Translations under genes and position numbers: made by a program | Notes under the pieces: generated by a model | The model's input: only the letters and a program-made list of their open reading frames with translations | Told to the model about the DNA's origin: nothing | Databases searched by the model: none | Origin: a virus | Length of the DNA stretch: 20,677 nucleotides | IMG/VR virus record: IMGVR_UViG_3300030060_003948 | Coordinates: 33,189-53,865 of that record | Direction: 5' to 3' (one strand) | Shown: in pieces, positions 2,333 through 20,677 of the stretch | Numbering within the stretch: position 1 is the stretch's first letter | Layout: each line of letters opens with the position of its first letter

Positions 2333-3193
2333 GTGAAATACGTAACACGTAAAGCAAAAATAATCAGAGAATCGGGTAGATCATCTGATTTTATTACACC
2401 ATCATTTGGTTTTGGCTGTGTATACAGATGTAATTACTGTTATATGCGTAGACATGTAAGTAGAGGGCTAACAATAGCCAAGAATACACAAGAACTAATA
2501 GATGTTATAGATAACCATGTAAAATCATTACAATGGCCTAAAGCCCCTAATCAGACTCATACAAATTTTTATACTTATGACTTTAGTTGTAACGAAGACT
2601 ATGTAAGGCACATAGAGTTTCATGATTGGCAACTACTATTTAATTATTTTAAAAATAGTGACAGAGCCTTTGGCACTGCAGCAACTAAATATGTTAACAG
2701 ACATTTATTAACATTTAATCCTAATAGAAAAATACGTATAAGATTTAGTCTAATGCCTCAACATTTATCAGACAAGTTAGAGCCTGGTACTAGCAAAATA
2801 ATAGAAAGAATAAAAGCAATAAACGAGTTCTACGATGCAGGCTATGATGTTCATATTAATTATAGTCCCGTAATCGTATATGATAACTGGCTCAACGACT
2901 ATCAAGATCTGTTTAGACTTGTTAGTGAAAATGTTAGAAACGACATTAAAAAAGACGTTCTAGCAGAATGTATCTTCTTAACGCACAATGCGAGTATGCA
3001 TGAACAGAATGTATCAAAGAATACGAGGGGTGAAGAGTATTTGTGGACTCCCCATAATCAGGAGGAAAAAGTGTCACAGTATGGTGGACACAATATACGA
3101 TACAACTGGTTTTACAAGAAGAAATACATAGAGCAGTTTAAATACATGCATACTAATGGTGTACCTTGGAATAAAATAAGGTATATCTTTTAA
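2333..3193 (+). CDS. Radical SAM protein, spore photoproduct lyase-like
   Basis: A 286-aa protein with C29-x3-C33-x2-C36 in the context TPSFGFGCVYRCNYCYMRRH, the radical S-adenosylmethionine 4Fe-4S motif. The surrounding TPS-G-C and CYMRRH pattern and the downstream TYDFSCNEDY segment resemble the spore photoproduct lyase family seen in phages. The family founder repairs spore thymine dimers; the substrate here is unknown, with DNA photolesion repair a reasonable inference. GTG at 2333 is used because the ATG at 2328 reads ATG-AAG-TGA and stops after two codons. The AGGAGG at 2317-2322 is 10 bases before GTG. Confidence 0.75.
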   Translation: MKYVTRKAKIIRESGRSSDFITPSFGFGCVYRCNYCYMRRHVSRGLTIAKNTQELIDVIDNHVKSLQWPKAPNQTHTNFYTYDFSCNEDYVRHIEFHDWQLLFNYFKNSDRAFGTAATKYVNRHLLTFNPNRKIRIRFSLMPQHLSDKLEPGTSKIIERIKAINEFYDAGYDVHINYSPVIVYDNWLNDYQDLFRLVSENVRNDIKKDVLAECIFLTHNASMHEQNVSKNTRGEEYLWTPHNQEEKVSQYGGHNIRYNWFYKKKYIEQFKYMHTNGVPWNKIRYIF

Positions 3194-6011: not shown

Positions 6012-6792
6012 AAAGTTTCCAAGTTTAGAATGGTCAGGACCAGCATGGTACTCACATGAGAAAGATGAAAATGGTTTTCCAACTGAAGTAAAGTTAGAAT
6101 ACTTTCATCCATTACATTTAGGTACAGCAAGTGAAACAGATTGGGACGGCAAAGAACTAATTAAAATATATAAGCCTTTACGAAAAGAATTTCCTGAAAT
6201 AGGTAAATCTTGGGTTCAAGGCAATATACACTCACATCATAGCATGGGAGCATTCTTTAGTGGCACAGATATACAGCAATGTGAAGACGGCGCTAATGAA
6301 AATTTTTATTATTCATTAGTAGTGTCAACTAAGCCTGGAAAAGAAGTGCATTTTGGTGTGTCATACCCCGATCAGTTTGGGAATATACATGTGCTTGAAT
6401 TTGAAGATATAGAAATAGAATCTATAGAAAATACAGATGACGAATGGGTAAAACAAGCAAAGTATATTAATAAAAACAGAACAAAAGTTACCCCTCAACT
6501 ATACACGAGAAAACATAATTCTTACTATAAAGAACAGGGGACTTTATTTGGTGTAACAAATGCGGAACAAAACCCCCAAGACACCAAACAAGACAGGTAC
6601 GAAGAATGGATGGATGTAATGTCATTCAACAATTCATTTACTGGTGAAGTAGAGGAGTTAGGATTTGCACAATGGGATGCATACGACACACTTATGCTTG
6701 ACTATGAAAAAGGTAGGATAAAGAAAAACAAGTTAAAAAAAGAACTTAAAAAAATAGGAGTAGATGAGCATGGACACCCGATACCTTCGTAA
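5944..6792 (+). CDS. JAMM/JAB-domain metallopeptidase
   Basis: A 282-aa protein starting at ATG 5944 with AGGAGG inside the E2-like gene. It has an intact JAMM zinc signature: H96-S-H98-x7-S106-x2-D109, with E29 (SLEWSGPAWY) as the probable catalytic glutamate. Such enzymes cleave ubiquitin-like proteins from targets or trim their C-termini; here trimming the modifier's terminal Arg would be the simplest use. The region after about residue 165 is an extra tail containing EQGTLFG (about 197-203), a second QxxLF clamp-like motif matching the end of the E2-like protein. It overlaps the E1-like gene by 23 bases. Confidence 0.82.
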   Translation: MNLINQKLIIPSTIWDKVLYFLKKFPSLEWSGPAWYSHEKDENGFPTEVKLEYFHPLHLGTASETDWDGKELIKIYKPLRKEFPEIGKSWVQGNIHSHHSMGAFFSGTDIQQCEDGANENFYYSLVVSTKPGKEVHFGVSYPDQFGNIHVLEFEDIEIESIENTDDEWVKQAKYINKNRTKVTPQLYTRKHNSYYKEQGTLFGVTNAEQNPQDTKQDRYEEWMDVMSFNNSFTGEVEELGFAQWDAYDTLMLDYEKGRIKKNKLKKELKKIGVDEHGHPIPS

Positions 6793-7450
6793 CCAAGACA
6801 TTATCGATCAATCAAGATTAGATAAGATAACAGTAATAGGAGCTGGTGGTATAGGTTCTGCATTACTACAAAACGCTGCAATAATGGGATTTAAAGAAAT
6901 AACCGTCTGGGACCCTGATATGTTAGAGGAACATAATTTGTCCACAACATCATGGCCAGAATGCTACTTAAATCAACCAAAAGTACATGCAGCAAATAAG
7001 ACATGTAAAAATCTTAATAAAAAGGTTAAAATAAATCTTAGAGAAGTTTTCTGGGAAACTGGAATGCCATTAGAAAACAAAGTATTCTTAACGCCTGATA
7101 ATATGGAATGTAGGCTTGCAGTATACAATCAATGGAAAGAAAACCCAGACAGAGAGTTCTTACTTGACATGAGAATGGGTGCATTGGGTTTTGAAATAAT
7201 AACTGTGACCAGAGAGTCCGATTATTTCATGGAATCCTATGCCCCAAGTTCCGCAATACCCGACGACCCCTGTACAGCAAAACACACAATATTTTGTGGT
7301 AGTTTAGCAGCATCATATGGCCTAGCACAAGCATTTAATGTCTTGCAAAATAGGATTTATTATGCGTACATTTGGGGGTCGTTAGGTCCTGTTAGTTTAC
7401 GTAGAGAGCATCTCGTTAAACCACAGATAATTAATAAACTTGCTGTATAA
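6770..7450 (+). CDS. ThiF/E1-like adenylating enzyme
   Basis: A 226-aa protein with the Rossmann-type E1 fold: an N-terminal RY-x-R helix, ITVIGAGGIGS (GAGGIGS about 24-30), WDPD (D48, D50), HNL (N56), a lysine in QPKVHAA (K71), and PDN....R (D110, N111, R115). C168 in DDPCTAKH is a candidate catalytic cysteine. The usual N-L-x-R after the ATP loop reads N-L-S-T-T, so that arginine is missing. ATG 6770 is chosen because AGGAG (6756-6760) is nine bases away; ATG 6764 leaves only three. It would activate the modifier's C-terminal glycine and pass it to the E2-like protein. Confidence 0.78.
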   Translation: MDTRYLRNQDIIDQSRLDKITVIGAGGIGSALLQNAAIMGFKEITVWDPDMLEEHNLSTTSWPECYLNQPKVHAANKTCKNLNKKVKINLREVFWETGMPLENKVFLTPDNMECRLAVYNQWKENPDREFLLDMRMGALGFEIITVTRESDYFMESYAPSSAIPDDPCTAKHTIFCGSLAASYGLAQAFNVLQNRIYYAYIWGSLGPVSLRREHLVKPQIINKLAV

Positions 7451-7529: not shown

Positions 7530-8393
7530 ATGTTAAAAGTAAATAAAATAAGTACCGATTGGTCCGATGATTTGCCAGGTGGAATAACTTGGTTTTTTAT
7601 TGGTCAGCCTAAAACAGGTAAAACTACTCAAGCATCAAAATGGTCACCAAAAGGCAGTGAAGGTTGTCTAGTTATAGACACAGATTTAGGTGCAGATTTT
7701 GTAGATGCTGCAAATGTAGTTACTTGTTGTGGTTTGAATCCTCCAACAAGAGTACAAGAAAAAGATGGTGTAAAAGTTACTAAAAATGGTCAATCAGTTA
7801 TAGAGATAGTTCCAACAAATGAACGTGGATTTTACTATAGAGGTGGACCAGAAAAAGGTAATCCTATGCATGTTTATTCATTAGCAGAAATATTAGCTGA
7901 TTTAATGAAAAACTGGCATGAATATTCTTATGATACTATAGTTATAGATACTATAGATCAGGTTAATTCATGGATTGAAGATGTCGTTAAAATTGATTTA
8001 GGCATTCAAAATATGGGTGACGGGAATTGGGGTGCAGATTGGGCTGCAGCTAAGAGAAAAAATGCAGATATTGTAAAAAAACTGCAAGATTTCTTAAAAA
8101 AGAAAGGTGGAAACTTAATACTAATATCACATGCTAAGCAAACAGCTATGACTGATGATAAAGCACAATTAGCTCCATCTTTACCTAGTGGTTTAGGTAG
8201 AACATTATGTGCTAAAGCAGATGTAATCGGATATGCTACTGTTAATAAGTCAACCCAAGAATATGAAGTATCATTTGAAGGTTATGACGAGAGAATGGTC
8301 GGTTCAAGACTAGCACCATTAGCAAATAAAGCTTTACCATTCGATTACGAAACAATAATAAATGAAATAAAATCCTATAAGGAGGAAAAATAA
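7530..8393 (+). CDS. Sak4-like RecA-fold recombination ATPase
   Basis: A 287-aa RecA/AAA-type ATPase with Walker A GQPKTGKTT (25-33), a Walker B IVID (137-140) in YDTIVIDTID, and a KKKGGNLILISH strand typical of the sensor region. Size and arrangement fit phage Sak4-type single-strand annealing recombinases. It begins at ATG after AGGAG and is followed with no gap by the 196-aa gene, whose ribosome site lies in its 3' end. That pairing of Sak4 with an ssDNA-binding protein is common in phage recombination modules. Role in homologous recombination or replication repair is by family. Confidence 0.78.
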   Translation: MLKVNKISTDWSDDLPGGITWFFIGQPKTGKTTQASKWSPKGSEGCLVIDTDLGADFVDAANVVTCCGLNPPTRVQEKDGVKVTKNGQSVIEIVPTNERGFYYRGGPEKGNPMHVYSLAEILADLMKNWHEYSYDTIVIDTIDQVNSWIEDVVKIDLGIQNMGDGNWGADWAAAKRKNADIVKKLQDFLKKKGGNLILISHAKQTAMTDDKAQLAPSLPSGLGRTLCAKADVIGYATVNKSTQEYEVSFEGYDERMVGSRLAPLANKALPFDYETIINEIKSYKEEK

Positions 8394-8984
8394 ATGGCAA
8401 TAATGCGTTCAGAAGTAAAAAAGAGTGGTGGTGATTGGCTAGGTATTAAAACTGGTACAATTGCAAAAATAACAGATGAAGCAGCTAAGTATGACTGGGC
8501 TGATGTTTATTTAGTTATTGAGTTTAATGTAGAAGGTTCTGATTATCCAAGAATCATGAAAATAGCTGGTTCTTATGATAAAGAGTCTAACGGTCAAATC
8601 AAAGATTGTTCATTACTTAAAAAAGTAACACATTTCTTTGATGCTATTGGTGAAATGGGTGGACCAAATCATCTAGGCCAATGGGTTAATGAAAAAGAAG
8701 AACCTGTTGCAGATATTGTTACTCATTTAAATCAATATATGGGCACTAGTCTAACTATATTTGTATTTAAAGAACTTGCAAAAAATGGACAAGCATATAC
8801 TAGAGTACATAATAAAGTATTAGCTAAAACTGCCAACTCAGAAAATGAATTAGAAGGTTATATTAATTTTCTAAGATCTAAAGGGTTCTTAAATGAGGCT
8901 CCTAAAGATATGTCTACACCAGCACAATCAGTGCAAATGAATGGCGCAACGAATGTTGACGGTATAGATATTGCAAATCTATAA
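8394..8984 (+). CDS. Probable ssDNA-binding protein of the recombination module
   Basis: A 196-aa protein starting immediately after the Sak4-like stop codon, with GGAGGAAAAATAA before ATG. Residues 12-150 show alternating strands (WADVYLVIEFNVEG, RIMKIAGSYD, TSLTIFVFKEL, RVHNKVL) compatible with an OB-like fold, followed by a low-complexity tail ending DGIDIANL. The sequence is not a close bacterial SSB and I assign it from its place next to the Sak4 homologue. It could instead be another replication accessory protein. Confidence 0.5.
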   Translation: MAIMRSEVKKSGGDWLGIKTGTIAKITDEAAKYDWADVYLVIEFNVEGSDYPRIMKIAGSYDKESNGQIKDCSLLKKVTHFFDAIGEMGGPNHLGQWVNEKEEPVADIVTHLNQYMGTSLTIFVFKELAKNGQAYTRVHNKVLAKTANSENELEGYINFLRSKGFLNEAPKDMSTPAQSVQMNGATNVDGIDIANL

Positions 8985-10749
8985 TTATATAGAGATAGCT
9001 AAGGACGCTCCAAAGAATAGGGGCGTCCTAATACCTAAAGAGGAACTTCCAAAACATATGAATGGGGTTCCTCTATATAGGTCTTTGTATATGTATGGTA
9101 AAGATGCTTATGACTATGCAGATGCACATAATAATAGTTTGAGAAATTATTATGGTGTTAGAGCAATTGACAATATTTTAATAGATATTGACAAAGAACA
9201 AAATACAGATGATTTTACATTAAAAAAATGTCAGTCAATAGTATTTAGTTTAACAGATGAATTTGACCTGCAGCAACATAATTTTAGGGTATATTTCTCT
9301 GGCTCTGGTTACCATATAATGATTCCTAATTCTGTTTTTAATTTTGTACCATCAGAAGAATTGCAATTTCAGGTAAAAGACACTATGATGAAGTTATTTC
9401 CTGATATTGATTCAATGATATACATGAGAACAGGATTGTATAGAGTTGCACATACTATAAACAAAAAAAGTGGTTTATATAAAATTCCCCTTACTTACCA
9501 AGAAATAATGAATAATACATGGCAGCAGATACACGATTTAGCAAAGTATCCTAGATTAGAGTTTCCATATACAGAATTACATGGAGACGGCGAACTAGAA
9601 GACTATATCGTAACTGAACAAGCTATGAAAAGAACTTTGGGTAAAGTAATGGAACCTAGGAAAGTAGCAACTTGCATACAAGCTATGTATAATCAAGGAC
9701 CACAACAAGGTTCTAGACACAAAACAATGCTTAGAATGATTTCACACTATAGAAGACACGGTATTCCATCGGAAGCAGCAAAAGAAATAATGTTAAAATG
9801 GAATGACGGTCAACTACATGAGCATGAAATTATAAAGCAAGTAGAATATGCATATAATAAAGGTTATCAATATGGCTGTAAAGACGAATTAATGTCTAGT
9901 CTATGTAACCCTAAATGTATATACTACAAAAGAAAAGACTATTTTGTAGATGTGATGACATCAGATAGCATGCAAACACAACTGGAAGATCGGTTAACAA
10001 CTGATTTTACAGGTAGAGCTTATAATTTTTCTAAATCATTAGGTTTAGAGCAAGATTGTATGTTTTACCCTGGTGACCTTATAACTATATTTGGCCCAAC
10101 TGGTAGTAGCAAAACTACTTTGGCTCATAATATTGCATTAGGTTACAACCATTATGAAGACAGAATCGATTTAGATGCACAAATACCTACGCTATATCTA
10201 TCTTTAGAGCTTGCTGGTTGGTATATGCATAGAAGAAGTCTTCAGATTGCATCAAATAAACCAAAAGATGTCGTTACTGCAGAATATAGAAGCATCTATC
10301 CTACTGTAAAAGACAAAGTTCAGCATATAAGTGTGCAAACTGTGTCACCTACACTTGAACAGATACAAAGTAAGATAACTGAATTGCAACCTGCTATGGT
10401 AATCGTAGATTATATTGATTTAGTCGAAACTCCGCCACATATAAAAGGCGAGTACGAACAAATTAAACATATATCTCATGGATTGTCTAATATGGCTGTT
10501 AATTTAGATATAATAATCGTACAAGTGTCTCAGGTAAGCCGAGAATACAGTAGAAACGAAGTATTAGACCTTTATGCAGGTAAAGGTTCAGGTGCTATAG
10601 AAAATGCCTCTAGAAAGGTAATTGGCTTAAATGGTCAAGCAAATTCACCAAATAAGTCAGTTAAATTGTTTAAAAATACAGATGGAGAGTTGTTTGAAAC
10701 AGAAGTAGAATGGACGCCATCTTTCAGATTACGGAGGACAAATGTCTAA
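8971..10749 (+). CDS. Primase-helicase fusion
   Basis: A 592-aa replication protein. The N-terminal archaeo-eukaryotic-type primase has ILIDIDKE (D72, D74), SGSGYHI (about 110-116) and D147 before IYMRTGLYRVAH. Residues 247-280 look like a PriCT-type linker; cysteines 303, 312 and 316 could bind metal. The C-terminal DnaB/RecA-like helicase has Walker A GPTGSSKTT (375-383), VIVDYIDL (D480) and QVSQVSRE. TTG at 8971 gives a 14-base overlap but lacks a good ribosome site; ATG 9058 is possible but would remove conserved-looking residues. It would unwind and prime DNA at the phage fork. Confidence 0.85.
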   Translation: MQIYNYIEIAKDAPKNRGVLIPKEELPKHMNGVPLYRSLYMYGKDAYDYADAHNNSLRNYYGVRAIDNILIDIDKEQNTDDFTLKKCQSIVFSLTDEFDLQQHNFRVYFSGSGYHIMIPNSVFNFVPSEELQFQVKDTMMKLFPDIDSMIYMRTGLYRVAHTINKKSGLYKIPLTYQEIMNNTWQQIHDLAKYPRLEFPYTELHGDGELEDYIVTEQAMKRTLGKVMEPRKVATCIQAMYNQGPQQGSRHKTMLRMISHYRRHGIPSEAAKEIMLKWNDGQLHEHEIIKQVEYAYNKGYQYGCKDELMSSLCNPKCIYYKRKDYFVDVMTSDSMQTQLEDRLTTDFTGRAYNFSKSLGLEQDCMFYPGDLITIFGPTGSSKTTLAHNIALGYNHYEDRIDLDAQIPTLYLSLELAGWYMHRRSLQIASNKPKDVVTAEYRSIYPTVKDKVQHISVQTVSPTLEQIQSKITELQPAMVIVDYIDLVETPPHIKGEYEQIKHISHGLSNMAVNLDIIIVQVSQVSREYSRNEVLDLYAGKGSGAIENASRKVIGLNGQANSPNKSVKLFKNTDGELFETEVEWTPSFRLRRTNV

Positions 10750-11296
10750 TAAACCAACAACAAGAGATCTAATAGGTGCTCTTATTGATTTACAAATCGA
10801 TAGGGAAAATCAAGAACTTTTAGAGCCAGATAATACAGAGGCACTAACAACGATTGATAATTCTATTAGTCAACTTAAAAAAGAAATCTCTAATAAAGCG
10901 TCTTCTATAGATTACTTTATGGTAGAGATGAACAAAAACACAAACCTTATTGATGCTGAAATAAAAACACATATGGATGAGGTTAAAAGATTGCGTAATA
11001 GAAAAAATGCAATTAAACGAACCGAAGACTACTTAAATAAAGAGCTTCTTCCTATGATAATCAATACTGCTGGAAACGATGGAGTGTTTAAAACAGATAC
11101 CACTAAGTATAAAATGTATCAAACCTGGGGACCAGTAGAAGTTACAGATGAAGAATCAGTTCCAGATAACTACAAAAGATACAAGGTAGAAATAGATAAA
11201 AAGAAAGCCAGACAGGATATTATCAAAGCTGCAGAAGACGGCATGGGAATATCAGGTTTTCAAATTAAAAAAGTAGACAGAATAAGGAGGTCTTAG
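10742..11296 (+). CDS. Siphovirus Gp157-family protein
   Basis: A 184-aa protein with GGAGG just upstream, overlapping the primase-helicase by 8 bases. The order fits the Gp157 family: a long coiled-coil helical half (about 36-100, ISNKASSIDYFMVEM...DEVKRLRNRKNAIKRTEDYLNKEL), then a beta part with FKTDTTKYKMYQTWGPVEVTD, a VPDNYKRYKVEIDKKKARQDI segment, and a C-terminal GISGFQIKKVDRIRRS. Members are frequent in phage recombination and replication clusters; the biochemical role is unsettled. The next gene starts inside its stop codon. Confidence 0.75.
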   Translation: MSNKPTTRDLIGALIDLQIDRENQELLEPDNTEALTTIDNSISQLKKEISNKASSIDYFMVEMNKNTNLIDAEIKTHMDEVKRLRNRKNAIKRTEDYLNKELLPMIINTAGNDGVFKTDTTKYKMYQTWGPVEVTDEESVPDNYKRYKVEIDKKKARQDIIKAAEDGMGISGFQIKKVDRIRRS

Positions 11297-11454
11297 TGGT
11301 TAAGGTATCATATAATAAGGGCGGAGCTTTAATAACGTTGTTTAACATTGTAGGTGTAGGCTTTGCACAAGTAAAAACTAAAAAAGAACAATCAGTTACT
11401 ATAACATTAAAATTATGGAAACTACATACATTCTTAAGTTTTGCTTGGATATAG
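11296..11454 (+). CDS. Small hypothetical protein, 52 aa, GTG start
   Basis: GTG at 11296 overlaps the previous TAG by one base (TAGTG) and uses AGGAGG at 11285-11290. It encodes 52 residues (VVKVSYNKGGALITL...) with beta-like alternation and an LFNIVGVGFA stretch. The stop TAG overlaps the AGGAGGG site of the HNH gene. The tight coupling on both sides supports it being translated. No family recognised. Confidence 0.6.
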   Translation: MVKVSYNKGGALITLFNIVGVGFAQVKTKKEQSVTITLKLWKLHTFLSFAWI

Positions 11455-11466
11455 GAGGGCCAGTAT

Positions 11467-11949
11467 GTGGCATACAAAAAGAACATAGTTAGAAGAGGTA
11501 AGGTGAAAACCTGGGAAGACAAATTCAGTAAAGTGCTCAAGAAACATCATGGGCACTTTGCTAAAAAGATATTCCATAGGTTAATGAAAAAAACCTCTAC
11601 CTTAAAAGCTTCTTTAAAGAAAAGGAGTAAAGAATATGAAGTTAAATTCGAAATCTCTTTGGATGAGATTAGAAGGATGTTTCTTAAGTATTATGGAAAG
11701 CAATGTAGGTATTGCACTGATGTACTTGTGGTATCTAATATTGTATGTGACCATATGTATCCTCTTTCTTTGGGGGGCGATTCAACTCCTAAAAATCTCA
11801 CCATAATATGTAGAAGATGTAATACTAGAAAGGGTCATTTGACAGATAAAGAATATTTATCTTTATTAAAATTCTTAAAGTCAAAGCCAGAAAATATGAG
11901 AAATTACGTTTTACGCAAATTAGCAAAAGGAGATAATTTTGAGAGTTAA
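11467..11949 (+). CDS. HNH endonuclease
   Basis: A 160-aa protein. The first 60 residues are strongly basic, fitting DNA binding. The HNH/treble-clef core follows: C80-x2-C83, D95-H96 in CDHMYPLSLGG, N110, and C115-x2-C118-N119 in ICRRCNTRKG. The two CxxC pairs bind structural zinc and D95-H96 are predicted catalytic residues. GTG at 11467 is the start (AGGAGGG at 11453-11459); the ATG two bases earlier closes after seven codons. It may be a free-standing homing nuclease or a phage DNA-processing enzyme. Confidence 0.8.
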   Translation: MAYKKNIVRRGKVKTWEDKFSKVLKKHHGHFAKKIFHRLMKKTSTLKASLKKRSKEYEVKFEISLDEIRRMFLKYYGKQCRYCTDVLVVSNIVCDHMYPLSLGGDSTPKNLTIICRRCNTRKGHLTDKEYLSLLKFLKSKPENMRNYVLRKLAKGDNFES

Positions 11950-12292
11950 CATGGTAAATACAGTGAAAGGGTTTATAATAGCAAAACCCGAATTAGCAAA
12001 CAGTGATGTAGAGTTGATTTATGCAATCTGGGCATGGCAACTCAAAAATAACAAGCCTTCTAAGGATATAAGTAAAATGACTGCTAAAGACTTGATGCAG
12101 CATTGGAGAGATGGAAATATTTCATCCGCATTCAATATATCAAGATCTAGAAGAAAATGTCAACAACATTATCCTGAAACGAGGGGGGAGTCATATGTCA
12201 AAAAGCAAAAGCATCAGGAAAGAGTTATCGAAGATGTCAAAAGAGAAACTGATAAGGCAAATCGAGTTTTATCAGAAGGACTTGGAGATTAA
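11939..12292 (+). CDS. Small protein with SISR-RRKCQ-PE-RG motif, 117 aa
   Basis: TTG at 11939 follows AAAAGGAG (11925-11932) with six-base spacing; ATG 11951 is the alternative. The central part has LIYAIWAWQ, an acidic helix, and NISRSRRKCQQHYPETRGESYVKKQKHQERV (about 66-96). The S-x-S-R-x-R-R-K-x-Q-x-x-x-P-E-x-R-G pattern recurs in phage proteins of unknown function and looks like a basic, probably nucleic-acid-binding helix pair. It overlaps the HNH gene by 11 bases and the next gene by 98 bases. Confidence 0.6.
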   Translation: MRVNMVNTVKGFIIAKPELANSDVELIYAIWAWQLKNNKPSKDISKMTAKDLMQHWRDGNISSAFNISRSRRKCQQHYPETRGESYVKKQKHQERVIEDVKRETDKANRVLSEGLGD

Positions 12293-12410
12293 ATCAGCAA
12301 GGGCTTTAAAGTATTATACGGCTTTTAACTATTTAATGGACCATTTTAACGATTTACCTGATGACATAAAAAAAGAAGTAGACAATAGGCTTAAAAACTT
12401 AAGTCTTTAA
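12195..12410 (+). CDS. Small coiled-coil protein, 71 aa, overlapping gene
   Basis: ATG at 12195 follows GGGGGGAG (12183-12190). The product (MSKSKSIRKELSKMSKEKL...) is nearly all helix, with a charged N-terminal half and LMDHFNDLPDDIKKEVDNRL near the end. The frame could be opened from an ATG at 12111, but the ribosome site decides for 12195. Its first 98 bases overlap the C-terminal part of the preceding gene in another frame. Function unknown. Confidence 0.65.
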   Translation: MSKSKSIRKELSKMSKEKLIRQIEFYQKDLEIKSARALKYYTAFNYLMDHFNDLPDDIKKEVDNRLKNLSL

Positions 12411-12415
12411 AAATA

Positions 12416-12551
12416 TATAGATGCAGGCAACGCAAGGGAAACAAGGTAACTAAGAAGTTATTCTCGTCGGGATTCAGTGGCTGGAAGTTGCACTAAACTA
12501 GGGGATAATAAAGCCTGGTTAGTATAAAAACTCTAAAGTCCTGCATCTATA
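12416..12551 (+). ncRNA. Structured element H with 12-bp closing stem
   Basis: TATAGATGCAGG (12416-12427) is perfectly complementary to CCTGCATCTATA (12540-12551). Within the loop, TAACT/AGTTA (12447-12451/12456-12460) forms a hairpin, CAAC/GTTG (12428-12431/12487-12490) a second helix, and ACTAA-CTAGG (12492-12502, one bulged A) pairs with CCTGGTTAG plus T (12514-12523, one G-U), a 10-bp arm. This gives a multibranched fold of 136 bases between two small genes, ending ten bases before the next ribosome site. It shares AACGCAARGGAA with element F. No known class recognised. Confidence 0.55.
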
Positions 12552-12567
12552 AAATTAAGGAGAAGGC

Positions 12568-12675
12568 ATGGCAAACCCAGAATACAAAATGACAAAGTGC
12601 ATGGCTTGTCAAAGATTTATCTCAGCTGCAGCATGCAACTTTGGATGTCCATACTGTGGATATACAGACGGCTGA
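12568..12675 (+). CDS. Zinc-knuckle microprotein, 35 aa
   Basis: ATG at 12568 follows AAGGAGAAGG. The 35 residues carry C11-x2-C14 and C23-x3-C27-x2-C30 (KCMACQ and CNFGCPYCGY), a compact zinc-ribbon or rubredoxin-like arrangement. It is the first gene after structured element H. Small zinc ribbons in phages often bind RNA polymerase, nucleic acid or other proteins, but nothing identifies the partner here. Confidence 0.65.
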   Translation: MANPEYKMTKCMACQRFISAAACNFGCPYCGYTDG

Positions 12676-12718
12676 GACACAAGCATACCTCCGTTGGAGG
12701 AAATTAAAGGAGTCGGCA

Positions 12719-12889
12719 ATGACAAAAAAAGATTACGAACTAATAGCAGCAGTGATGAAAAGTCACAAAGTGCTGTTCGAAAAGTCAACAAAAATAATAA
12801 TGAAATCATTAATGGAACATCTTAAAAAAGATAATCCTAAGTTTAATGAAGATATATTTAAAAAGAGGAGTGGCTTTATAAATGGGTAA
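12719..12889 (+). CDS. Small hypothetical protein, 56 aa
   Basis: ATG at 12719 follows AAAGGAG. The product begins MTKKDYELIAAVMKSHK and is helical and basic, with NPKFNEDIFKKRSGF at the end. MTKKDYELIA-type short proteins are, from memory, widespread in phage early regions and have no assigned role. A longer in-frame start at 12641 would overlap the zinc-knuckle gene and has no ribosome site. A CCTCC-GTT-GGAGG mini-hairpin at 12688-12700 lies just upstream and could affect initiation. Confidence 0.65.
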   Translation: MTKKDYELIAAVMKSHKVLFEKSTKIIMKSLMEHLKKDNPKFNEDIFKKRSGFING

Positions 12890-13295
12890 GATAAGCTCAA
12901 TATATGGAAGCAATCAGATATTATTTGCTGCAGGTTCTAGAAAAGGTAAATCTAAGAAACGTATTGCAGGAATGATTAAAAGTCAACAGTATAAAAAGAA
13001 AACTTATACTAAAACAATAAACAAAAAAAGGAGTTCTTATATGGGCTACACTAAGCTAGGAAAAGTAACAATGTACGTCAACAAAGATGCAACAGAAGAA
13101 AACAGACAACCTCATTTTAAAGGTTATGTTAAATTAGACCATAAAATACCAAAAGGCGCAGAAATTGGATTAGCTGGTTGGTTAAACGAAAAAGGAAGTG
13201 ATAAATCTTTATTTTTCGCTATATCTGCTAAAGATGAACAACTAACACAGGAAAATCTAGATCTTGACGATTCGGAGAGTGATACGCCGTTTTAG
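12882..13295 (+). CDS. Two-start small protein, 137 aa (internal start gives 84 aa)
   Basis: The outer ATG at 12882 overlaps the preceding gene by 8 bases and has GAGGAG upstream. The first 53 residues are very rich in Lys/Arg. A second ATG at 13041, in the same frame, has its own AAAAGGAG and begins MGYTKLGKVTMYVNKDATEENRQ; that 84-residue part resembles a small phage protein family with KLGKVTMY and acidic C-termini (DLDDSESDTPF). The conserved-looking part therefore starts at 13041, while the longer form adds a basic tail. The C-terminus resembles acidic SSB-type tips, so ssDNA association is conceivable. Confidence 0.65.
   Translation: MGKISSIYGSNQILFAAGSRKGKSKKRIAGMIKSQQYKKKTYTKTINKKRSSYMGYTKLGKVTMYVNKDATEENRQPHFKGYVKLDHKIPKGAEIGLAGWLNEKGSDKSLFFAISAKDEQLTQENLDLDDSESDTPF
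13027..13043 (+). promoter_or_regulatory. Internal ribosome site and in-frame start
   Basis: AAAGGAG (13027-13033), seven bases before ATG 13041, in frame with the longer gene that starts at 12882. It would produce a separate 84-aa protein lacking the basic N-terminus. Confidence 0.55.
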
Positions 13296-13297
13296 AA

Positions 13298-13387
13298 ATG
13301 TCTATGGAAGAAATAACTGAATTGTTTAAATTAAGGCAAATGGGCCTTGAAAACGCAATTCAAGAAATCTTAAGGAGAAGGGGGTAA
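13298..13387 (+). CDS. Microprotein, 29 aa
   Basis: The frame ATG 13298 to TAA 13387 encodes MSMEEITELFKLRQMGLENA followed by a basic end with three consecutive arginines. It is a single amphipathic helix. Its end contains the AAGGAGAAGGGGG site of the next gene, and TAA overlaps the next ATG (TAATG), indicating coupling. Its own ribosome site is poor (GGAGAG about 20 bases upstream), so translation may depend on reinitiation after the previous stop at 13295. Confidence 0.5.
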   Translation: MSMEEITELFKLRQMGLENAIQEILRRRG

Positions 13388-13605
13388 TGATGAGTGTTAA
13401 GTTGGTAAACCTTAGCAATTACGAAGAAAGTAAAAAACGTAATAAATCAGGAATCAATTCTTATTATTGTGAAGAATACAGAGGGCTCGATGTTGTTTCA
13501 AGAGCTAAAAAAGCTGCTTTAGCAGTATCAGATAATGGGAAATGTTGGTGGATTTATGACTTTGTTTACAGAGAATTAACTTGGAGGAACCCAAAATGCG
13601 ATTAG
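13387..13605 (+). CDS. Hypothetical protein, 72 aa
   Basis: ATG at 13387 overlaps the upstream TAA; a second ATG follows at once. The product has a basic middle (ESKKRNKSGINSYYCEEYRGLDVVSRAKKAALAVS) and an aromatic end (GKCWWIYDFVYRELTW). No family is recognised. The last bases overlap the next gene by ten, with that gene's GGAGG site inside this one. Confidence 0.65.
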   Translation: MMSVKLVNLSNYEESKKRNKSGINSYYCEEYRGLDVVSRAKKAALAVSDNGKCWWIYDFVYRELTWRNPKCD

Positions 13606-14051
13606 CAGAACACAATGAACTCTTGGAAGATATATTTGATAAAGTTCGTGACATAAGACTAGCTGGTCAGAAAGAGTATGCGCATGACGAGGATAACTGC
13701 TTTGCTAACTTTGAAAGAATAGCAAATTTGCAAGGACTAAGCCGTGAAAGTATACTAATGACATATGTTTTAAAACATGTGGATGGCATACAATCTTATG
13801 TTAAAGGTCATAAAAGTCAACGTGAAGATGTAAGAGGTCGAATCGTTGATATAATAGTCTATCTGACCCTACTTTGGGGTATGGCCGATCAGGATGACAT
13901 TACCGATGCATTTATAAAACGTGAGAAATCACTTATAGATGAAGATGTAAGTGCAGAAGCACACATGTCTAAATACAAAGGTGAATGGAAACAAGAACCA
14001 GATAGATTTAAGGTAAAAGGATATGACAGCAATGGAGAAAAAACAAAATAA
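13596..14051 (+). CDS. DUF1599/Nmad1-type protein, 151 aa
   Basis: ATG at 13596 follows TTGGAGG; a TTG at 13581 in frame is the ribosome site itself. The pattern AGQKEYAHDEDNCFANFERIA (about 22-42), MTYVLKHVDGIQSYV (about 55-69) and REDVRGRIVDIIVYLTLLWGM (about 77-97) matches the DUF1599 family (nucleotide-modification-associated domain 1). The family is helical and related in appearance to MazG-type nucleotide-binding proteins. In phages it sits near DNA-metabolism genes; a role with modified or regulated nucleotides is by association only. Confidence 0.7.
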   Translation: MRLAEHNELLEDIFDKVRDIRLAGQKEYAHDEDNCFANFERIANLQGLSRESILMTYVLKHVDGIQSYVKGHKSQREDVRGRIVDIIVYLTLLWGMADQDDITDAFIKREKSLIDEDVSAEAHMSKYKGEWKQEPDRFKVKGYDSNGEKTK

Positions 14052-14319
14052 AGCATACGAAAACGCAATAGACTATGCTAATGCTGTAACTACTGCTGAG
14101 AACGGCGATGTCGGGTTTTTAGCTTGGAGATTTCTAATAGGATGTCGTATATTAGAATGTCTGGAAGATATGGAAGGTTGCCCTAAAATAGGGACTGACG
14201 TTCAAGTCAGCTCATTGAATCAAGACACTAGTATATTAAGGTTAGGCGACTATGAAATCTCTTTGGCATACAAGCCCGAGGGTCAGGACAAACCGTTAAA
14301 TGAGCCGAACTCTTTGTAG
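14023..14319 (+). CDS. Hypothetical protein, 98 aa
   Basis: Last forward gene, overlapping the DUF1599-type gene by 29 bases. ATG 14023 and ATG 14032 are both possible; AAAAGG is close to the first and about 13 bases from the second, so neither is ideal. The product has a helical N-terminal half (QNKAYENAIDYANAVTT, FLAWRFLIGCRILECLEDME) and a beta-like C-terminal half. No family recognised. The forward transcription unit ends after it at the hairpin near 14343. Confidence 0.6.
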   Translation: MTAMEKKQNKAYENAIDYANAVTTAENGDVGFLAWRFLIGCRILECLEDMEGCPKIGTDVQVSSLNQDTSILRLGDYEISLAYKPEGQDKPLNEPNSL

Positions 14320-14342
14320 ACCTCAGCCAAGAGGGACTAAAA

Positions 14343-14371
14343 TATAGGGGGACTATTAATGTCCCCTTATA
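14343..14371. terminator. Candidate bidirectional terminator hairpin
   Basis: Bases 14343-14353 pair with 14361-14371 (core GGGGAC/GTCCCC), an 11-bp stem with a 7-base loop TATTAAT. On the forward side a long T-tract lies further on (14383-14393); on the reverse side TATATTTTAG follows the stem directly. The position between convergent gene blocks supports a shared terminator, although neither side has a textbook immediate U-tract. Confidence 0.5.
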
Positions 14372-14378
14372 ATTTAAA

Positions 14379-14495
14379 TCATTTCTTTTTTTTAACTACG
14401 TAAGTATATTTTTTTTGACCATAGAATACTGGGACTGAAGTAGATGACCTAGTCCAATAATCTTTAGGAATCTCTATTATCTTCTTTTGCTGCAT
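14379..14495 (-). CDS. Nested microprotein, 38 aa
   Basis: Reverse-strand frame ATG 14495 to TGA 14379, overlapping the last 32 bases of the giant ORF in a different frame. It encodes MQQKKIIEIPKDYWTRSSTS followed by VPVFYGQKKYTYVVKKKK. The mix of aromatic, proline and alternating hydrophobic residues looks like real protein. The hairpin at 14343-14371 lies eight bases after its stop, so it would be the last gene of the reverse operon. Its ribosome site is weak (GATAAAG), which suggests coupling to the upstream giant gene. Confidence 0.5.
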   Translation of the reverse strand: MQQKKIIEIPKDYWTRSSTSVPVFYGQKKYTYVVKKKK

Positions 14496-17400
14496 TATTT
14501 GCTTTATCTGCCTTTTTAATTTCTCTAGCTATTTGTATATAAGGTATTCCTGTTCCTTTTTCTATAGTATAGTAAGGATTTTCCATAACTCCTGTAACAT
14601 CTCTTGCCATTCTTCCGAATGGGAACATTGTCCACATATAATAGTCTGTTAGCCTACTATAATCATTTGTTACCATAGAATTAAACAGGGCTGGAGCCAA
14701 CCGCAAACCTGGCGGAGTAACCATTTGGAGTGGAGCTAGTGCAGTTGGCCAAACCCCGAAAAATGCTCTATCTCTTTCAACTTCATCACCAAAGATCCAA
14801 TCAGCAGTATCTTGAAACCAAGAATAAGGCTGTGGCATTGCTGTTTCAAATAAAGAGTAAGCGAATATATTTGCCATACCTAAAACAAACATATCAGTAC
14901 TAGTTTGTCTTTTAAGTCTTTCAAATTCTGGAGTACCACGTCTAAATCCATGTAACTTAGCTTCTCTGTATACATCATTTCTAAATCTTACAGAGTTCCA
15001 AGCCCAAGTTTGGAAACGTGTCATAACTTTACCTAATGCTGTAGCACTAAATGCTGGTCTATATGGAGCAGAATATAAGAACTGTGTAGCCTGTACACCT
15101 TTTTTAGCCATTTCTATTAAAAACGGGTCATTTAAGCCCATATTAGCATGACCATAAATCTCCCTAGCTTGTAAATAGTGTGCAGCAAATGCATCTCTTC
15201 TCAATGCTCTTTCAGGATAACGCATAAACCAAGCAGCATTCTGGAACATTGCTTCAGTAATTTGATGCTTTTTAGCTAGTGAAAGTAATGTTTCGTCCTT
15301 GACCATAGGGTCTTTCTTTAAAACTTTTTCAGCATCCATAAAGAATCTTTTATATTTACCAGACTTAAAGTTTGGATTTAAACCTGCCTCATAAAGAACA
15401 AAGTTGGGAACAACTCCGTGACTAATGGCCCAAGCTTCAATATCTTTTTTAGTAGACCAATCAGATGCTTTTCCAGCTATATTAGTTCTCCAGTATTCTA
15501 CATTTCTAGCATTTCTCCAGTTACGCCATCCAGTAGATTGTATTGTATGCATTTGTCCACCAAATACGTTACCAGTAGCCGACTTAGGGTGAGCAAGTAG
15601 TGTAGCCATTTGATATTTAGCTTCTAAGTTAGACCAATGTCTTATATCCATTTCATCTACACCTTGTAAATCAGTAGGTAAAGACGGATCTTCCTTCATA
15701 CCAACAGTTTTTCTAATTCTATTTACCATATCTTTTACATGATTATCAGCAAACCAACTATAAGGTGTCCCTTTAACTTTCATTAGTTTCGCATCCGCAC
15801 CAGTAAGCCAAGACTCGGGTAGTTTAGAAGGAAAACCCATAGCTCTAGATATATAATCATAAATATAGTTATTCCAAGCAAACGCTTGTTGTGGGTCTTT
15901 CCATTCTGCTAATGCTTTTTTGTTAAAGTTAGATAACATTTTTTTAGATAGTATCTGCCCTATCTGCCTATGATAAGTATCTATTAAATTCTTTTGATAT
16001 ATATCCCAAGCACCTAGGTCTCTATTCCATCCTGGAAGATGTATGTTTCTTGACATCATATTACCAGAAATAGGGTCTTTTTCAAGTGCTCTCATATGAT
16101 CGCCTTTTCTTTTATTAGCAATCTCATTTAAGGCACCTCTAATCATACCATCTTCAGCTACGTCATTAACAATCCAGTCTCCTGTCATAGACTTATATCT
16201 TAAAATTAATTTAGCAATTTCTTGCTCTCTTTGTTCATCAGGAATACCTGTTTGTTTTTTAAGTTTAGCAATAGCTGCTTCAATTGCTCGTTTTGCAACT
16301 GATTTGTTTTGTATAAAGTGTGGATGATACTCAGTAGATTTAAACTGTCTAGTTCTACCATACTCTGCTTTACCTAAGTTTTTAGCAAGTTCTAAATACA
16401 TGTCTTTTTCTGCTTTAGTTTGTGCCATATCTCGCATTTCTAAAACATTTTCAATTTGTATAGACCTAGATATTTTTCTTAAATTATCTAAACCAAACCT
16501 AATGTCAAGAGGTTTTCCTGACTTTAAATTTCTCATTATATCATCAATAAATTTTTCGCCTTTAATTTTAGGCAGCTTAGTATTACCAAACCAGTATTGA
16601 ACCTTACCCTTTTTAGTTTCTAAATATTTATTAATAGGATTGTCAACAGAATTGTCAATTTCATGTTTTCCAGTTCTTCTATTGTATCTATAATTAGATC
16701 CTGCTATCCAGGTATAAGTTTCTGCAGCTCTTTCAGTTAAGACTTTATTTATATTTTTTGCAATAGTTTCACCATTTTCTCTATAAGTTCCACCTTTTTT
16801 GCGAACAGCAAATATATTTTTAGATGTGTTTTTCCAATCAGCTATTTCTTCAGCTTCTTTTAAATTATCTTGATAAACCTTTAAATCTATACGATATGCT
16901 TGATCTTTTTTATTTGCATTTGCGCTTTCAAAAGATGCCAAGTCACGTCTAGCAGTAACAACTTCAGCAATATGTTGTCCCATACCATCAGGTAAAGACT
17001 CATATCCAGTTTGATCTCTAAGAGTTTGCTCTAATAAGTTTTTCTCATCCTCATCCATTTTAATAGCTAAAGCTTCTGCTTTACCAAGAACATATTGTAT
17101 ATTCTCTATAGCATGTGTAGGTCTACCAACATTACCACGACGCCACTCACCTTTAAAGTTTTGGAATCGGCCTTCCTGTGTAAATATATCAAAATCTTTA
17201 ACCATCATTTCTCTAGAAACTGTTTTAGGAAAAAGCATCCAGTGACGCTCTGCTAGTTTTAATATATTATCTTTTGTTAAAGAGCCGTCACGTACGAAAA
17301 CGGTACCACTGCGCATATCTTTAAAGAAATTATTTACAACACGATAATCCTCAACACCCATAGCGTCAAAGTTTTTAGCAACCAAAGACCTGGTGATTTG

Positions 17401-20400
17401 GTTTAATTTATTAGTATTACCTATAGATTTACCATAGTATGATATATGCCCAATAAGTTCATCAACCATCTTGCGTTCAAAACTAGACAATGAAGTATCC
17501 CCAACACGCTTAAGTCTTTCACGACTAGCATAAAGACCTTCGCTATCAGACTCTAATGGATCTTTAGGAGCAATATCAACTAACTCTCCCGCTTTATTAT
17601 TTCCATCCAATGCTTTGCTATAATCTACATCTTTTAACTGAACATTATCTCTATAGTCAAATTGTTCGCTATATTTCTTTAAAAAATCTCTAACGGCCCT
17701 ATCATTAACATACTTAGATGACATTCCAGTCTTTTCAAATAATGTTTCACTACCACTTAATCTAATTTGTCTTATAAGAGGATTAACTAATTGCTTGACA
17801 TTAGCATTTAAACTATTGTAATAATCGTAATTAATTAAGTCTTGCGCTTTGTCAAACGTAGATAACAGCATAGTATCAACTAAATAAGACTCTGCATCAC
17901 TTAATACTCTTGTTTTTTGCTCACCTTTAGAATCTTTACCCATTCCAAAATAATTATCTAATTTAAAGTTTTTTATTCTATTGTCAATTCTTTGTTGATT
18001 GCTATATGCTAACTCTTTATTTTTTAAGTTAAATACCTTTCTCATGCTAAAGTTTTCAAAAGAGGCATCATCAATAATACTTTCACCTTTTTCTGCTTCA
18101 TATGCATTAATTATAGCCCTAGCTCTATCACTTCTAGCCATTTTCTTAGTATCAGAAACAAAATTAGCAGCAGAACGTATAAAGTCATCAGAAACACCTG
18201 CTTTTTTAGCATTATTTATAGCATCTAGCAACTGTAAAGCAGATGCACGATCCATTCCATCGTTTTGTATAAAGTCTGTTGATTGTCTGTAGGCTCTATC
18301 AATCATTTCACTTCTATAAGTAAGCATATTAGCCATAGCTTGGTCGTATTTTGTTTGATTAAAAACACCATTGTCTATAAAATACTTTTTATTTTTTTGA
18401 TCAAAAGGTGTACTTCTAGCTTTAAATGTTAGAGTATTAAAAAAGGTTTTACCTTTTAAGCCTGAGAAAAAATTGTCATACATTTTAAAGTCTTGCAACA
18501 TTTCTCTTCTAACTTCAGGTTTGAATAATTCTGCATCTATTGCACGCATTGACAATTGACTCTCTGGAGACTTAAAGCTGAATCTACCTAGTAAACCTCC
18601 AACAACTTTCTTGCCATTAGCATCCATTCTATAAGAATCATTAAGCATTTTTAATTCACCAGCTATATTTTTATATTCATCATATCTATTTAGCAGCGCT
18701 TCTTTATCTATTCTTCCTAAAATATCATCAGAATAGTCTAATGGTTCTAATTCCTTAACCATTTTACCAAGCATATTACCTTTTTGATTATCATTTAATA
18801 AATGTATTTTGCTAGCAAACTCTTGTATTTCATGAGAATAAAATCTTCTATTCTTATCATAGTTTCTAGAAAAATAACCTCTATTGAAACCTTGGAATAT
18901 TTTAACTAAGCCTTGCTTAGAATGATAGTAAGGTGTAAAACTATTTTTAGCAGCGTCTGAATTAAAGTCTAATTCAAATAAAGAATGATAAGCAACATCA
19001 TAAAATTTTTGAGCACCAACTAAACCAAGTTCATCAAGCGGATCAGAACCAAAAGCAATTTGAGACCTAAACAATTCCCTAGAATAATTTAAAGAATCAT
19101 CGTCTAATCTAGGCTTAACATAAGCAACATGTTCTTTATTTTTACCCCAAACAAGCATTTCTCTAGTATCTTCTTTATATTGTTTCTTTTTATAATCAGA
19201 AAGTTTTTCATATTTATCTACTTCAATATATTTACCGTTCTTATCTACATACCTTTTAACAGTATTAAACTTCATAGCATCATAAGCAGCGTTTAGTATT
19301 TGTTTACTAACAACAGCAGGCCCAAGCTGATCACGACCATCAACTGCTTTGTTTGCTATATCTAATCTACCTTCAGGGGTAAACTTTCCTATGAAAGACT
19401 TGTAAGCATCTGACTTATTGCCAGTAGTAGCATCGTTAGTATAAGTAAATAAATCTTGCCAAGTAACATTTTTACCAGCTTTAATTTTATTTAACACTTG
19501 CTTATCATGTGAATCTTTAGGATTTAGTATATCTTGTAGTATTTCTAAACCTTTTTTAGATATAGGAGCTTCCTTATTATCTGCTATTTTTAAAGTTTCA
19601 GGGTCTCTAAACTCATATTTATTTTGATGGTACATTTTTCTATACTCTGGCTTCATACCAAAAAGAACAAAAGCTTTATCACCATCAAGGTCAGCACCTC
19701 CTAGAGCTCTCATAGTTCTAGGATGAAATACAGCCCCATGACCCTTTATACCTGTAAACCCTGCAAAGGCTAATTCATGTGCACCAGATATAGAGTCCAT
19801 AGGAACACGTAGAGAAATAGTTTTAAAAAAGTCTTTTACTTTATCGTTATGCCTATAATCTTTCCATAACTTTCCTAATTTCATTCTTTTACCACCAGCA
19901 ACTAAATTGCTTACATCATATTCTACATCCATATATAAATCGTCTAAGTAAAATAACTGGTCTGGATTTTCAACACCATAGGTTTCTTTTAAGTATTTTC
20001 TATCTTTCATAATACCTTTTCTACCTTTAGTCATATCCATATTCATGTCTTTAAACTTAGGGTCAATACGCATCCACGGATCGTAACCACGCATTCTAGT
20101 AGATATACTATAATCCCATTTAGGTCTAATAATTTTATTAACTACAAAATTCTTCATAGCTGCCTGGAGATAGTTTCTAACATCTTTGTGTAAGAAAACT
20201 GCTAAATCAGGATATATCTCCATCATTCTATTGATAGAAGAAGTAAATGTCTTAGCCTCTGCTATATTTTCTAAATATTCTTTAGAAGATAATTCACCAG
20301 ACTCATAGTCTGCTGTAAGATTCTCAATATTAGACCTTAATACTTTTTGATACAGCTTAGCTACAAAATCAGGATGGTTGTTGTTTTTAATTGCATCAAC

Positions 20401-20677
20401 TACATCTGATAAACCAATTTTATCTATATTTCTAAGTATATCTTGCTGCTCAGCTTCTGATATTTTTTCACTCTTAAGAGCGTCGTCTAATCTAGTATTC
20501 CATTCGTCATTACCTTTAAACTTTGTTTCAATAATATCTTTATAAAAATCATCAATAACCTTTTGATTTATCTTACTCCAAGAATGAGGTAATAAATTAG
20601 ACATCATCTGTTTAGGTATTTGTTGTGGATCTAGCATATGTTGTGTTTGTTTTTCAGATAAAGAACCCTTTATAGAT
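14464..20677 (-). CDS. Giant two-barrel RNA polymerase-like / polyvalent virion protein (partial)
   Basis: Open from the stop at 14464 to the window edge; the first ATG at 20637 has no ribosome site and the frame stays open 13 codons upstream, so the true start lies outside. Numbered from that ATG, D316-L-D-G-D320 sits in GGADLDGDKAFV, preceded by LRVPM (276-280) and HPRTMRALGG: the R-P...HP...DxDGD order of the catalytic barrel of multisubunit, YonO/QDE-1 and crAss-like phage RNA polymerases. D-Q-L-G-P (436-440) recalls the LG-x-I motif after it. The C-terminal ~450 residues, with LLAHPKSATGNVFGG and ATQFLYSAPYRPAFSATALG, resemble large phage polyvalent or injected proteins and contain hydrophobic stretches. 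A virion-borne transcriptase is inferred. Confidence 0.6.
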   Translation of the reverse strand, partial: SIKGSLSEKQTQHMLDPQQIPKQMMSNLLPHSWSKINQKVIDDFYKDIIETKFKGNDEWNTRLDDALKSEKISEAEQQDILRNIDKIGLSDVVDAIKNNNHPDFVAKLYQKVLRSNIENLTADYESGELSSKEYLENIAEAKTFTSSINRMMEIYPDLAVFLHKDVRNYLQAAMKNFVVNKIIRPKWDYSISTRMRGYDPWMRIDPKFKDMNMDMTKGRKGIMKDRKYLKETYGVENPDQLFYLDDLYMDVEYDVSNLVAGGKRMKLGKLWKDYRHNDKVKDFFKTISLRVPMDSISGAHELAFAGFTGIKGHGAVFHPRTMRALGGADLDGDKAFVLFGMKPEYRKMYHQNKYEFRDPETLKIADNKEAPISKKGLEILQDILNPKDSHDKQVLNKIKAGKNVTWQDLFTYTNDATTGNKSDAYKSFIGKFTPEGRLDIANKAVDGRDQLGPAVVSKQILNAAYDAMKFNTVKRYVDKNGKYIEVDKYEKLSDYKKKQYKEDTREMLVWGKNKEHVAYVKPRLDDDSLNYSRELFRSQIAFGSDPLDELGLVGAQKFYDVAYHSLFELDFNSDAAKNSFTPYYHSKQGLVKIFQGFNRGYFSRNYDKNRRFYSHEIQEFASKIHLLNDNQKGNMLGKMVKELEPLDYSDDILGRIDKEALLNRYDEYKNIAGELKMLNDSYRMDANGKKVVGGLLGRFSFKSPESQLSMRAIDAELFKPEVRREMLQDFKMYDNFFSGLKGKTFFNTLTFKARSTPFDQKNKKYFIDNGVFNQTKYDQAMANMLTYRSEMIDRAYRQSTDFIQNDGMDRASALQLLDAINNAKKAGVSDDFIRSAANFVSDTKKMARSDRARAIINAYEAEKGESIIDDASFENFSMRKVFNLKNKELAYSNQQRIDNRIKNFKLDNYFGMGKDSKGEQKTRVLSDAESYLVDTMLLSTFDKAQDLINYDYYNSLNANVKQLVNPLIRQIRLSGSETLFEKTGMSSKYVNDRAVRDFLKKYSEQFDYRDNVQLKDVDYSKALDGNNKAGELVDIAPKDPLESDSEGLYASRERLKRVGDTSLSSFERKMVDELIGHISYYGKSIGNTNKLNQITRSLVAKNFDAMGVEDYRVVNNFFKDMRSGTVFVRDGSLTKDNILKLAERHWMLFPKTVSREMMVKDFDIFTQEGRFQNFKGEWRRGNVGRPTHAIENIQYVLGKAEALAIKMDEDEKNLLEQTLRDQTGYESLPDGMGQHIAEVVTARRDLASFESANANKKDQAYRIDLKVYQDNLKEAEEIADWKNTSKNIFAVRKKGGTYRENGETIAKNINKVLTERAAETYTWIAGSNYRYNRRTGKHEIDNSVDNPINKYLETKKGKVQYWFGNTKLPKIKGEKFIDDIMRNLKSGKPLDIRFGLDNLRKISRSIQIENVLEMRDMAQTKAEKDMYLELAKNLGKAEYGRTRQFKSTEYHPHFIQNKSVAKRAIEAAIAKLKKQTGIPDEQREQEIAKLILRYKSMTGDWIVNDVAEDGMIRGALNEIANKRKGDHMRALEKDPISGNMMSRNIHLPGWNRDLGAWDIYQKNLIDTYHRQIGQILSKKMLSNFNKKALAEWKDPQQAFAWNNYIYDYISRAMGFPSKLPESWLTGADAKLMKVKGTPYSWFADNHVKDMVNRIRKTVGMKEDPSLPTDLQGVDEMDIRHWSNLEAKYQMATLLAHPKSATGNVFGGQMHTIQSTGWRNWRNARNVEYWRTNIAGKASDWSTKKDIEAWAISHGVVPNFVLYEAGLNPNFKSGKYKRFFMDAEKVLKKDPMVKDETLLSLAKKHQITEAMFQNAAWFMRYPERALRRDAFAAHYLQAREIYGHANMGLNDPFLIEMAKKGVQATQFLYSAPYRPAFSATALGKVMTRFQTWAWNSVRFRNDVYREAKLHGFRRGTPEFERLKRQTSTDMFVLGMANIFAYSLFETAMPQPYSWFQDTADWIFGDEVERDRAFFGVWPTALAPLQMVTPPGLRLAPALFNSMVTNDYSRLTDYYMWTMFPFGRMARDVTGVMENPYYTIEKGTGIPYIQIAREIKKADKANNAAKEDNRDS

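Follow-up and report, generated by a model that had tools for sequence, protein, structure and literature searches.

The window analysed here is the whole 20,677-nucleotide stretch formed by the last 20.7 kb of the 53,865-base virus record IMGVR_UViG_3300030060_003948 (record bases 33189–53865). Its right-hand part carries the larger portion of a giant gene that we predict to encode a single-chain RNA polymerase built on two double-psi beta-barrels. The C-terminal 2,070 codons of this gene occupy window 14464–20677 (minus strand): the frame is free of stops from 14464 to 20676 and runs off the contig, which ends at 20677, as an earlier reading made from the letters alone (the sequence-only reading) had described. 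The ATG at window 20637 is an internal methionine of the giant protein and not its start. The missing N-terminal part, and with it the first barrel that the same reading had expected beyond 20677, was found outside the window, where the record begins: its minus-strand bases 1 to ~3,199 encode 1,065 residues beginning with a methionine. This part ends ‘...DGTVDFDFKGGKD’, matching the join ‘[YELSLE]SIKGS’ of L002, a 96%-identical relative that holds the whole gene (3,141 amino acids); about six codons are lost between the two pieces, and the full protein of the window gene likewise comes to ~3,141 residues. Because the missing part sits at the opposite record end, we interpret the 53.9-kb record as a circularly permuted genome broken inside the polymerase gene. 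In another relative, G003, the same gene is also broken, with its pieces at both ends of the contig.

Catalytic core and predicted fold

The window protein carries the series R-V-P...G-F-T-G...H-P-R...G-G-A-D-L-D-G-D, which starts at R290 (P0001 numbering). The complete catalytic block, R-V-P-M-D-S-x-S-G-A...G-F-T-G...H-P-R...G-G-A-D-L-D-G-D, spans window 19678–19809 (minus strand), with GGADLDGD at 19678–19701. The sequence-only reading had seen in this series the metal-binding loop of two-barrel RNA polymerases, and the motif is present as described; its D316–D320, counted from the ATG at 20637, correspond to D329, D331 and D333 of P0001, and the predicted metal-binding residues of barrel A are D1400, D1402 and D1404 in P0002 numbering. 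Conservation across an alignment of 57 relatives is highest in two regions, the last ~350 residues and the block R-[IV]-P-M-D-S-x-S-G-A...G-F-T-G...H-x-R-x-M...G-G-A-D-L-D-G-D. Of the fetched proteins, all 77 that extend across the site retain the DxDxD triad (GGADLDGD in 71, GGADLDAD in 4, GGADKDGD in 1 and AGADFDGD in 1), a count that leaves out nine other fetched proteins, which are fragments starting downstream of the triad. Given this conservation of the block and the presence of the triad in every protein of this set, the motif is not a chance occurrence. In L007, L009, L043 and L084, the middle glycine of the metal loop is replaced by alanine (GGADLDAD), with the three aspartates intact.

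The in-window part of the polymerase core (P0002 1072–1726; window 18712–20676, minus strand) comprises the inter-barrel connector, barrel A and the helical region that follows, modelled at a pLDDT (predicted local distance difference test) of 90 (AlphaFold model m6ba61b38f9dd). Barrel A, the metal-binding double-psi beta-barrel, covers P0002 ~1312–1425 (window 19615–19956, minus strand), with boundaries estimated from predicted DSSP strands. Barrel B lies outside the window at P0002 ~967–1045 and has the pattern TDG...N-K-[SA]-F...G-A-L-L-G-K...S-[AS]-[AV]-K-x-x-G-x-R; its lysines 993, 1009 and 1038 are invariant in 48 relatives, as judged by column invariance alone. The order on the single chain (barrel B with its lysines, connector, barrel A with DxDxD) is the one described for known single-chain two-barrel enzymes (PMC10770324). 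After barrel A, long predicted helices (model residues 766–780 and 783–801) that bear the invariant arginines R1508 and R1519 of P0002 form a candidate bridge-helix region at window 19270–19377 (minus strand), assigned by order alone; they fall inside the range aligned with two-barrel enzymes, in an alignment of the whole range only.

Modelling of P0002 740–1800 by AlphaFold without templates, with 48 relatives in the alignment, gave a confident core structure (pLDDT 90.1; predicted template modelling score, pTM, 0.87), of which residues 1–987 align with single-chain two-barrel RNA polymerases. The top Foldseek match in the PDB was 6vr4, the virion RNA polymerase of the crAss-like phage phi14:2 (E = 6.4e-8), followed by QDE-1 (E = 1.5e-5); among the matches listed, all remaining rows are cellular or viral RNA polymerases. 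VIA-align gave Z scores of 16.6 for QDE-1, 15.2 for RDR2, 12.3 for the P23-45-type gp64, 11.5 for P23-45 gp96 and 10.6 for 6vr4, the last with 683 residues aligned at 4.3 Å and ~10–12% identity. The sequence-only reading had staked its proposal on a double-psi barrel around D316–D320, and the proposal survives: the model is confident there, and two-barrel RNA polymerases head its matches in the PDB. We regard the polymerase identity as a strong prediction from the modelled fold.

Extreme divergence, with no match to a sequence family, could also mark a protein that kept the polymerase fold but lost catalysis and was retained as a structural or DNA-binding part of the virion. We give this hardly any credence, given the intact triad, the invariant barrel-B lysines and the strong structural matches to active enzymes.

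A two-barrel polymerase could instead serve genome replication, either as a DNA polymerase like archaeal PolD, which also has double-psi barrels (PMC10770324), or as a primase. No DNA polymerase was recognized among the open reading frames scanned, where the aimed search was made for PolA only and the B family was not searched specifically; PolA was absent from the record, with positive controls. Nevertheless, the best structural matches are RNA polymerases, the phage already encodes a primase–helicase, and the gene sits with virion genes rather than with replication genes; PolD is absent among the 50 matches listed of either PDB search (Foldseek or VIA-align). Many phages of such size use the host DNA polymerase, which also counts against a replicative role, and we consider that role very unlikely.

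Relation to known polymerases

Using crAss profiles made from phi14:2 and Crassvirales homologues, we compared barrels A and B separately. Barrel A scored 26.1 against its crAss counterpart (mean 10.8 and maximum 19.7 in 100 column shuffles) and barrel B scored 21.5 (shuffle mean 11.8, maximum 19.8); crossed pairs (A against B) scored at chance. The profile comparison with crAss-like RNA polymerase proposed by the sequence-only reading was therefore positive for each barrel, above all 100 shuffles, but the core profile as a whole matched the crAss profile only weakly (E = 0.0036, probability 9%; barrel A alone, E = 0.0003). When PDB sequences were searched with the core profile by hmmsearch, 6vr4 was not retrieved. 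Profile comparison with P23-45 gp96 gave no match, and comparison with gp64 aligned the DxDGD region correctly at a weak E of 0.04. Chance-level matches to eIF2B, PAH_ZNF598 and domains of unknown function were discarded. Fold and motifs place the protein in the single-subunit two-barrel superfamily; direct comparison of sequences does not make it recognizable as a crAss family member. The crAss-like relation suggested earlier thus stands for fold and motif, the protein belonging to a separate family without ordinary sequence similarity.

The likeness to the crAss enzymes extends from the best Foldseek match and the same barrel order to a common motif skeleton (TDG...K...K...S-x-x-K-x-G and R-[IV]-P...S...G...G-x-D-x-D-x-D) and to a giant chain encoded among virion genes, adjoining other giants. 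Identity in structural alignment is, however, only ~10–12%, without a tblastn or hidden Markov model match; the triad reads [SA]DFD[IV]D in crAss and ADLDGD here; crAss barrel B has TD[GA]Q...K-P...K...S-[AV]-x-K-x-G where the present family has its TDG...N-K-[SA]-F pattern; crAss genomes are ~90–100 kb as against ~50 kb here; and the core is followed here by ~1,400 residues with a distinct conserved C terminus. DprA-like parts occur in some crAss homologues and in some members of the present family. A DprA/SLOG-like motif, [TS]-[GS]-G-A-x-G-A-D (SGGAxGAD), lies in the N-terminal third of L007 (residue 589) and L009 (residue 658) and at residues ~386–419 of L025–L027, L031, L041, L042 and L089, and is absent from others; phrog_768, a DprA-like accessory part, was hit in one relative (E = 4e-41). 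The crAss polymerase giants are sometimes annotated ‘DprA-like’, which would make this a shared accessory part.

The eukaryotic RNA-interference polymerases QDE-1 and RDR2, which also hold two barrels on one chain, give the highest Z scores over most of the core, but they are cellular enzymes of ~1,000–1,400 residues that use RNA or DNA templates, at 10–12% identity. The Thermus phage P23-45 has two single-chain two-barrel polymerases, of which gp96 belongs to a 5,002-amino-acid giant that was detected in virions and gp64 is a two-barrel RNA polymerase outside the virion (PMC10770324). In gp96, of which 1,200 residues were needed for activity, the core is at the N terminus of a tape measure protein of a long-tailed phage, whereas here it is central and the portal is of the P22/KPP25 type. 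The closest parallel in layout is the N4 virion RNA polymerase, a 3,500-amino-acid chain with its polymerase at 998–2103 (PMC4496689), in the middle third as here, but of the unrelated T7 type with a right-hand fold, so that the layout alone is alike. Pfam RNA_pol (T7-like polymerase) had no match in the giant protein, for which the modelled fold is two-barrel; a search of the whole record for a T7-type RNA polymerase was also without match, with control genomes equally silent.

In BFVD, the nearest of the listed matches to the core model are the unnamed proteins A0A516LW39 (45% identity) and A0A516LAI4 (23%), followed by more unnamed proteins and crAss-like phages. The same fold recurs at ~10–11% identity in A0A516M3R5, A0A516L9L2, A0A516LUR1, A0A516LSI3, A0A516M7V2 and Virus NIOZ-UU157; to judge by these predicted structures, such distant proteins suggest still other undescribed families of two-barrel polymerases.

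Gene order, flanking regions and probable virion carriage

In transcription order, the minus strand encodes the terminase large subunit, a P22/KPP25-type portal, the major capsid protein, other virion genes, a metallophosphoesterase, giants of 1,668 and 1,392 amino acids and a tail-fibre-like gene, with the polymerase gene last. The two adjoining giants, upstream of the polymerase gene, lie outside the window at bases 8083–12261 (1,392 amino acids) and 12261–17267 (1,668 amino acids) of the record (G000, minus strand), and have no family match, PHROGs included; the pair recalls the three adjacent giant structural genes of phi14:2. The plus strand, which is convergent to the minus strand, encodes a radical-SAM lyase, a JAB/ThiF pair, Sak4, a primase–helicase, a Gam-like gene and HNH genes.

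We think it probable that the giant protein is a single-chain two-barrel DNA-dependent RNA polymerase of ~3,140 residues that is packaged, injected and used to transcribe early genes without the host RNA polymerase. Given that it is an RNA polymerase, its carriage in the virion is likely, in view of its size, its gene position and the analogous giant fusions: the packaging is inferred from the N4 enzyme, P23-45 gp96 and the RNA polymerase-associated giants that crAss001 has in its virions (PMC10172136), each a giant fusion that travels in the particle. The active site would be built from barrels B and A, in the middle third of the chain. Packaged in the particle with the help of its flanking regions, which would also aid delivery, the protein would enter the cell either ahead of the DNA or together with it. 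After refolding, it would transcribe the early genes of the opposite strand from phage-specific promoters, independently of the host RNA polymerase, until the host enzyme or another took over.

Several results weigh against this proposal. Searches of Pfam, PHROGs and PDB sequences with the window protein, full-length relatives and the core alignment gave no credible match to the core, and tblastn against 50,697 GenBank phage records found no match to the polymerase. A location behind virion genes is, taken alone, no proof of packaging. The model of the C-terminal region is of low quality (pLDDT 67, pTM 0.48), and the non-polymerase regions have no assigned fold. An early promoter motif was looked for in the intergenic gaps and was not found, no k-mer common to the gaps standing clearly above shuffles.

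The missing promoter motif would also suit a two-barrel RNA polymerase that is synthesized within the infected cell to serve middle or late genes and stays unpackaged, like P23-45 gp64. Such non-virion enzymes exist (PMC10770324), and gp64-type structures score as high against the core as virion ones (Z = 12.3 versus 11.5 and 10.6). However, gp64 has 616 residues, whereas the present chain has ~3,140, including two large conserved regions outside the polymerase; the giant fusions known from phi14:2, P23-45 (gp96) and N4 are virion proteins; and the gene stands at the end of the virion-gene strand, away from replication genes. We therefore hold the unpackaged enzyme to be an unlikely alternative to the virion-carried one, though a weightier one than a role in replication.

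Non-polymerase sequence makes up ~740 residues before the core and ~1,400 after it. A variable middle-to-late region at window 16573–18711 (minus strand), poorly conserved among the 57 relatives and without family match, leads to a conserved, mostly helical C-terminal region (P0002 2440–3141; window 14467–16572, minus strand; low-confidence model) that includes T-Q-F-L-Y-S-A-P...R-F-Q-x-W-x-W-N. The sequence-only reading had called this C terminus polyvalent-type, with hydrophobic segments. That part found no support: a Pfam large-polyvalent domain (LPD) was found in the C-terminal region of 0 of 44 relatives and not in the window protein, structural matches to LPD proteins were non-significant, and hydrophobicity is weak, the segment MFVLGMANIFAYSLFETAM at window 14836–14892 (minus strand) reaching a 19-residue Kyte–Doolittle mean of 1.35 in L002, the best value. 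Searched against BFVD, the low-confidence C-terminal model recovered the same unnamed proteins as the core and otherwise weak or non-significant matches, including tape-measure, internal-virion and large-polyvalent proteins. phrog_11358 (unknown function, 3,431 positions) matched weakly in 27 of the 44 relatives (best 3e-5), and tblastn with a consensus-like C-terminal sequence found no match among GenBank phages.

Among the neighbouring plus-strand genes, a radical-SAM protein of the spore photoproduct lyase family (window 2333–3193; PF20903, E = 2e-23) may be a phage DNA repair enzyme. At window 5944–7450 (plus strand), a JAB-like gene (PF14464, E = 7e-5, just under the cut-off) overlaps a ThiF/E1-like gene (PF00899, E = 1e-15), forming a ubiquitin-like E1–JAB pair in a phage; just upstream, window 4650–6011 (plus strand) encodes a 453-residue protein without a known family. 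Sigma-70-like sites at the left end did not exceed shuffles, and no Rfam family was found in the window.

Distribution and meaning of the family

Searching IMG/VR with one protein returned 8 relatives, and searching it with the alignment returned at least 210 loci, of which 80 were retained. Full-length relatives have ~2,800–3,500 residues, and the 57 aligned full-length proteins are mostly ~30% identical to the close relative of the window protein. Between the window gene and L002, the closest pair, dN (nonsynonymous divergence) is 0.020 and dS (synonymous divergence) 0.38, a ratio of ~0.05: the giant polymerase gene is under purifying selection. When contigs were picked by terminase instead, the core was present in an unbroken frame on each of the 12 long ones, so the polymerase is a core gene of the lineage. 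A scan of genome contigs for a host or prophage gave 61 pattern matches and 0 relatives. Among the matches listed, the best terminase and portal relatives are other tailed phages at 23–28% identity, those of the portal being podovirus-type phages (23–27%) and not crAss phages; on our best reading of these comparisons, the lineage is probably not represented in GenBank.

A 2024 paper compared 23 two-barrel families (PMC10770324). The family described here is not mentioned in the open-access papers searched, and our best reading, which does not extend to the supplementary alignments of PMC10770324, is that it is known in principle and new as a highly diverged family. On balance we lean towards the view that this core gene of an abundant ~50-kb phage lineage, unmatched in GenBank, specifies a virion-delivered enzyme from a deep and so far undescribed family of single-subunit two-barrel RNA polymerases, one that combines a crAss/QDE-1-type core with an N4-type giant layout. 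Few single-chain two-barrel RNA polymerase structures have been solved (phi14:2, P23-45 gp96 and gp64, and QDE-1/RDR2), and the present family, which hundreds of metagenomic contigs encode, is a deep branch missed by Pfam, PHROGs and sequence search, in phage genomes of half the size.

If a crAss/QDE-1-type core does sit in an N4-type layout, virion RNA polymerases of such build would have arisen from two unrelated folds, which suggests that the giant-fusion injected transcriptase evolved more than once. The diverse 57-protein alignment can be used to address the origin of the crAss and QDE-1 polymerases, and the family, if confirmed, would add a further deep branch that bears on the origin of the eukaryotic RNA-interference polymerases.

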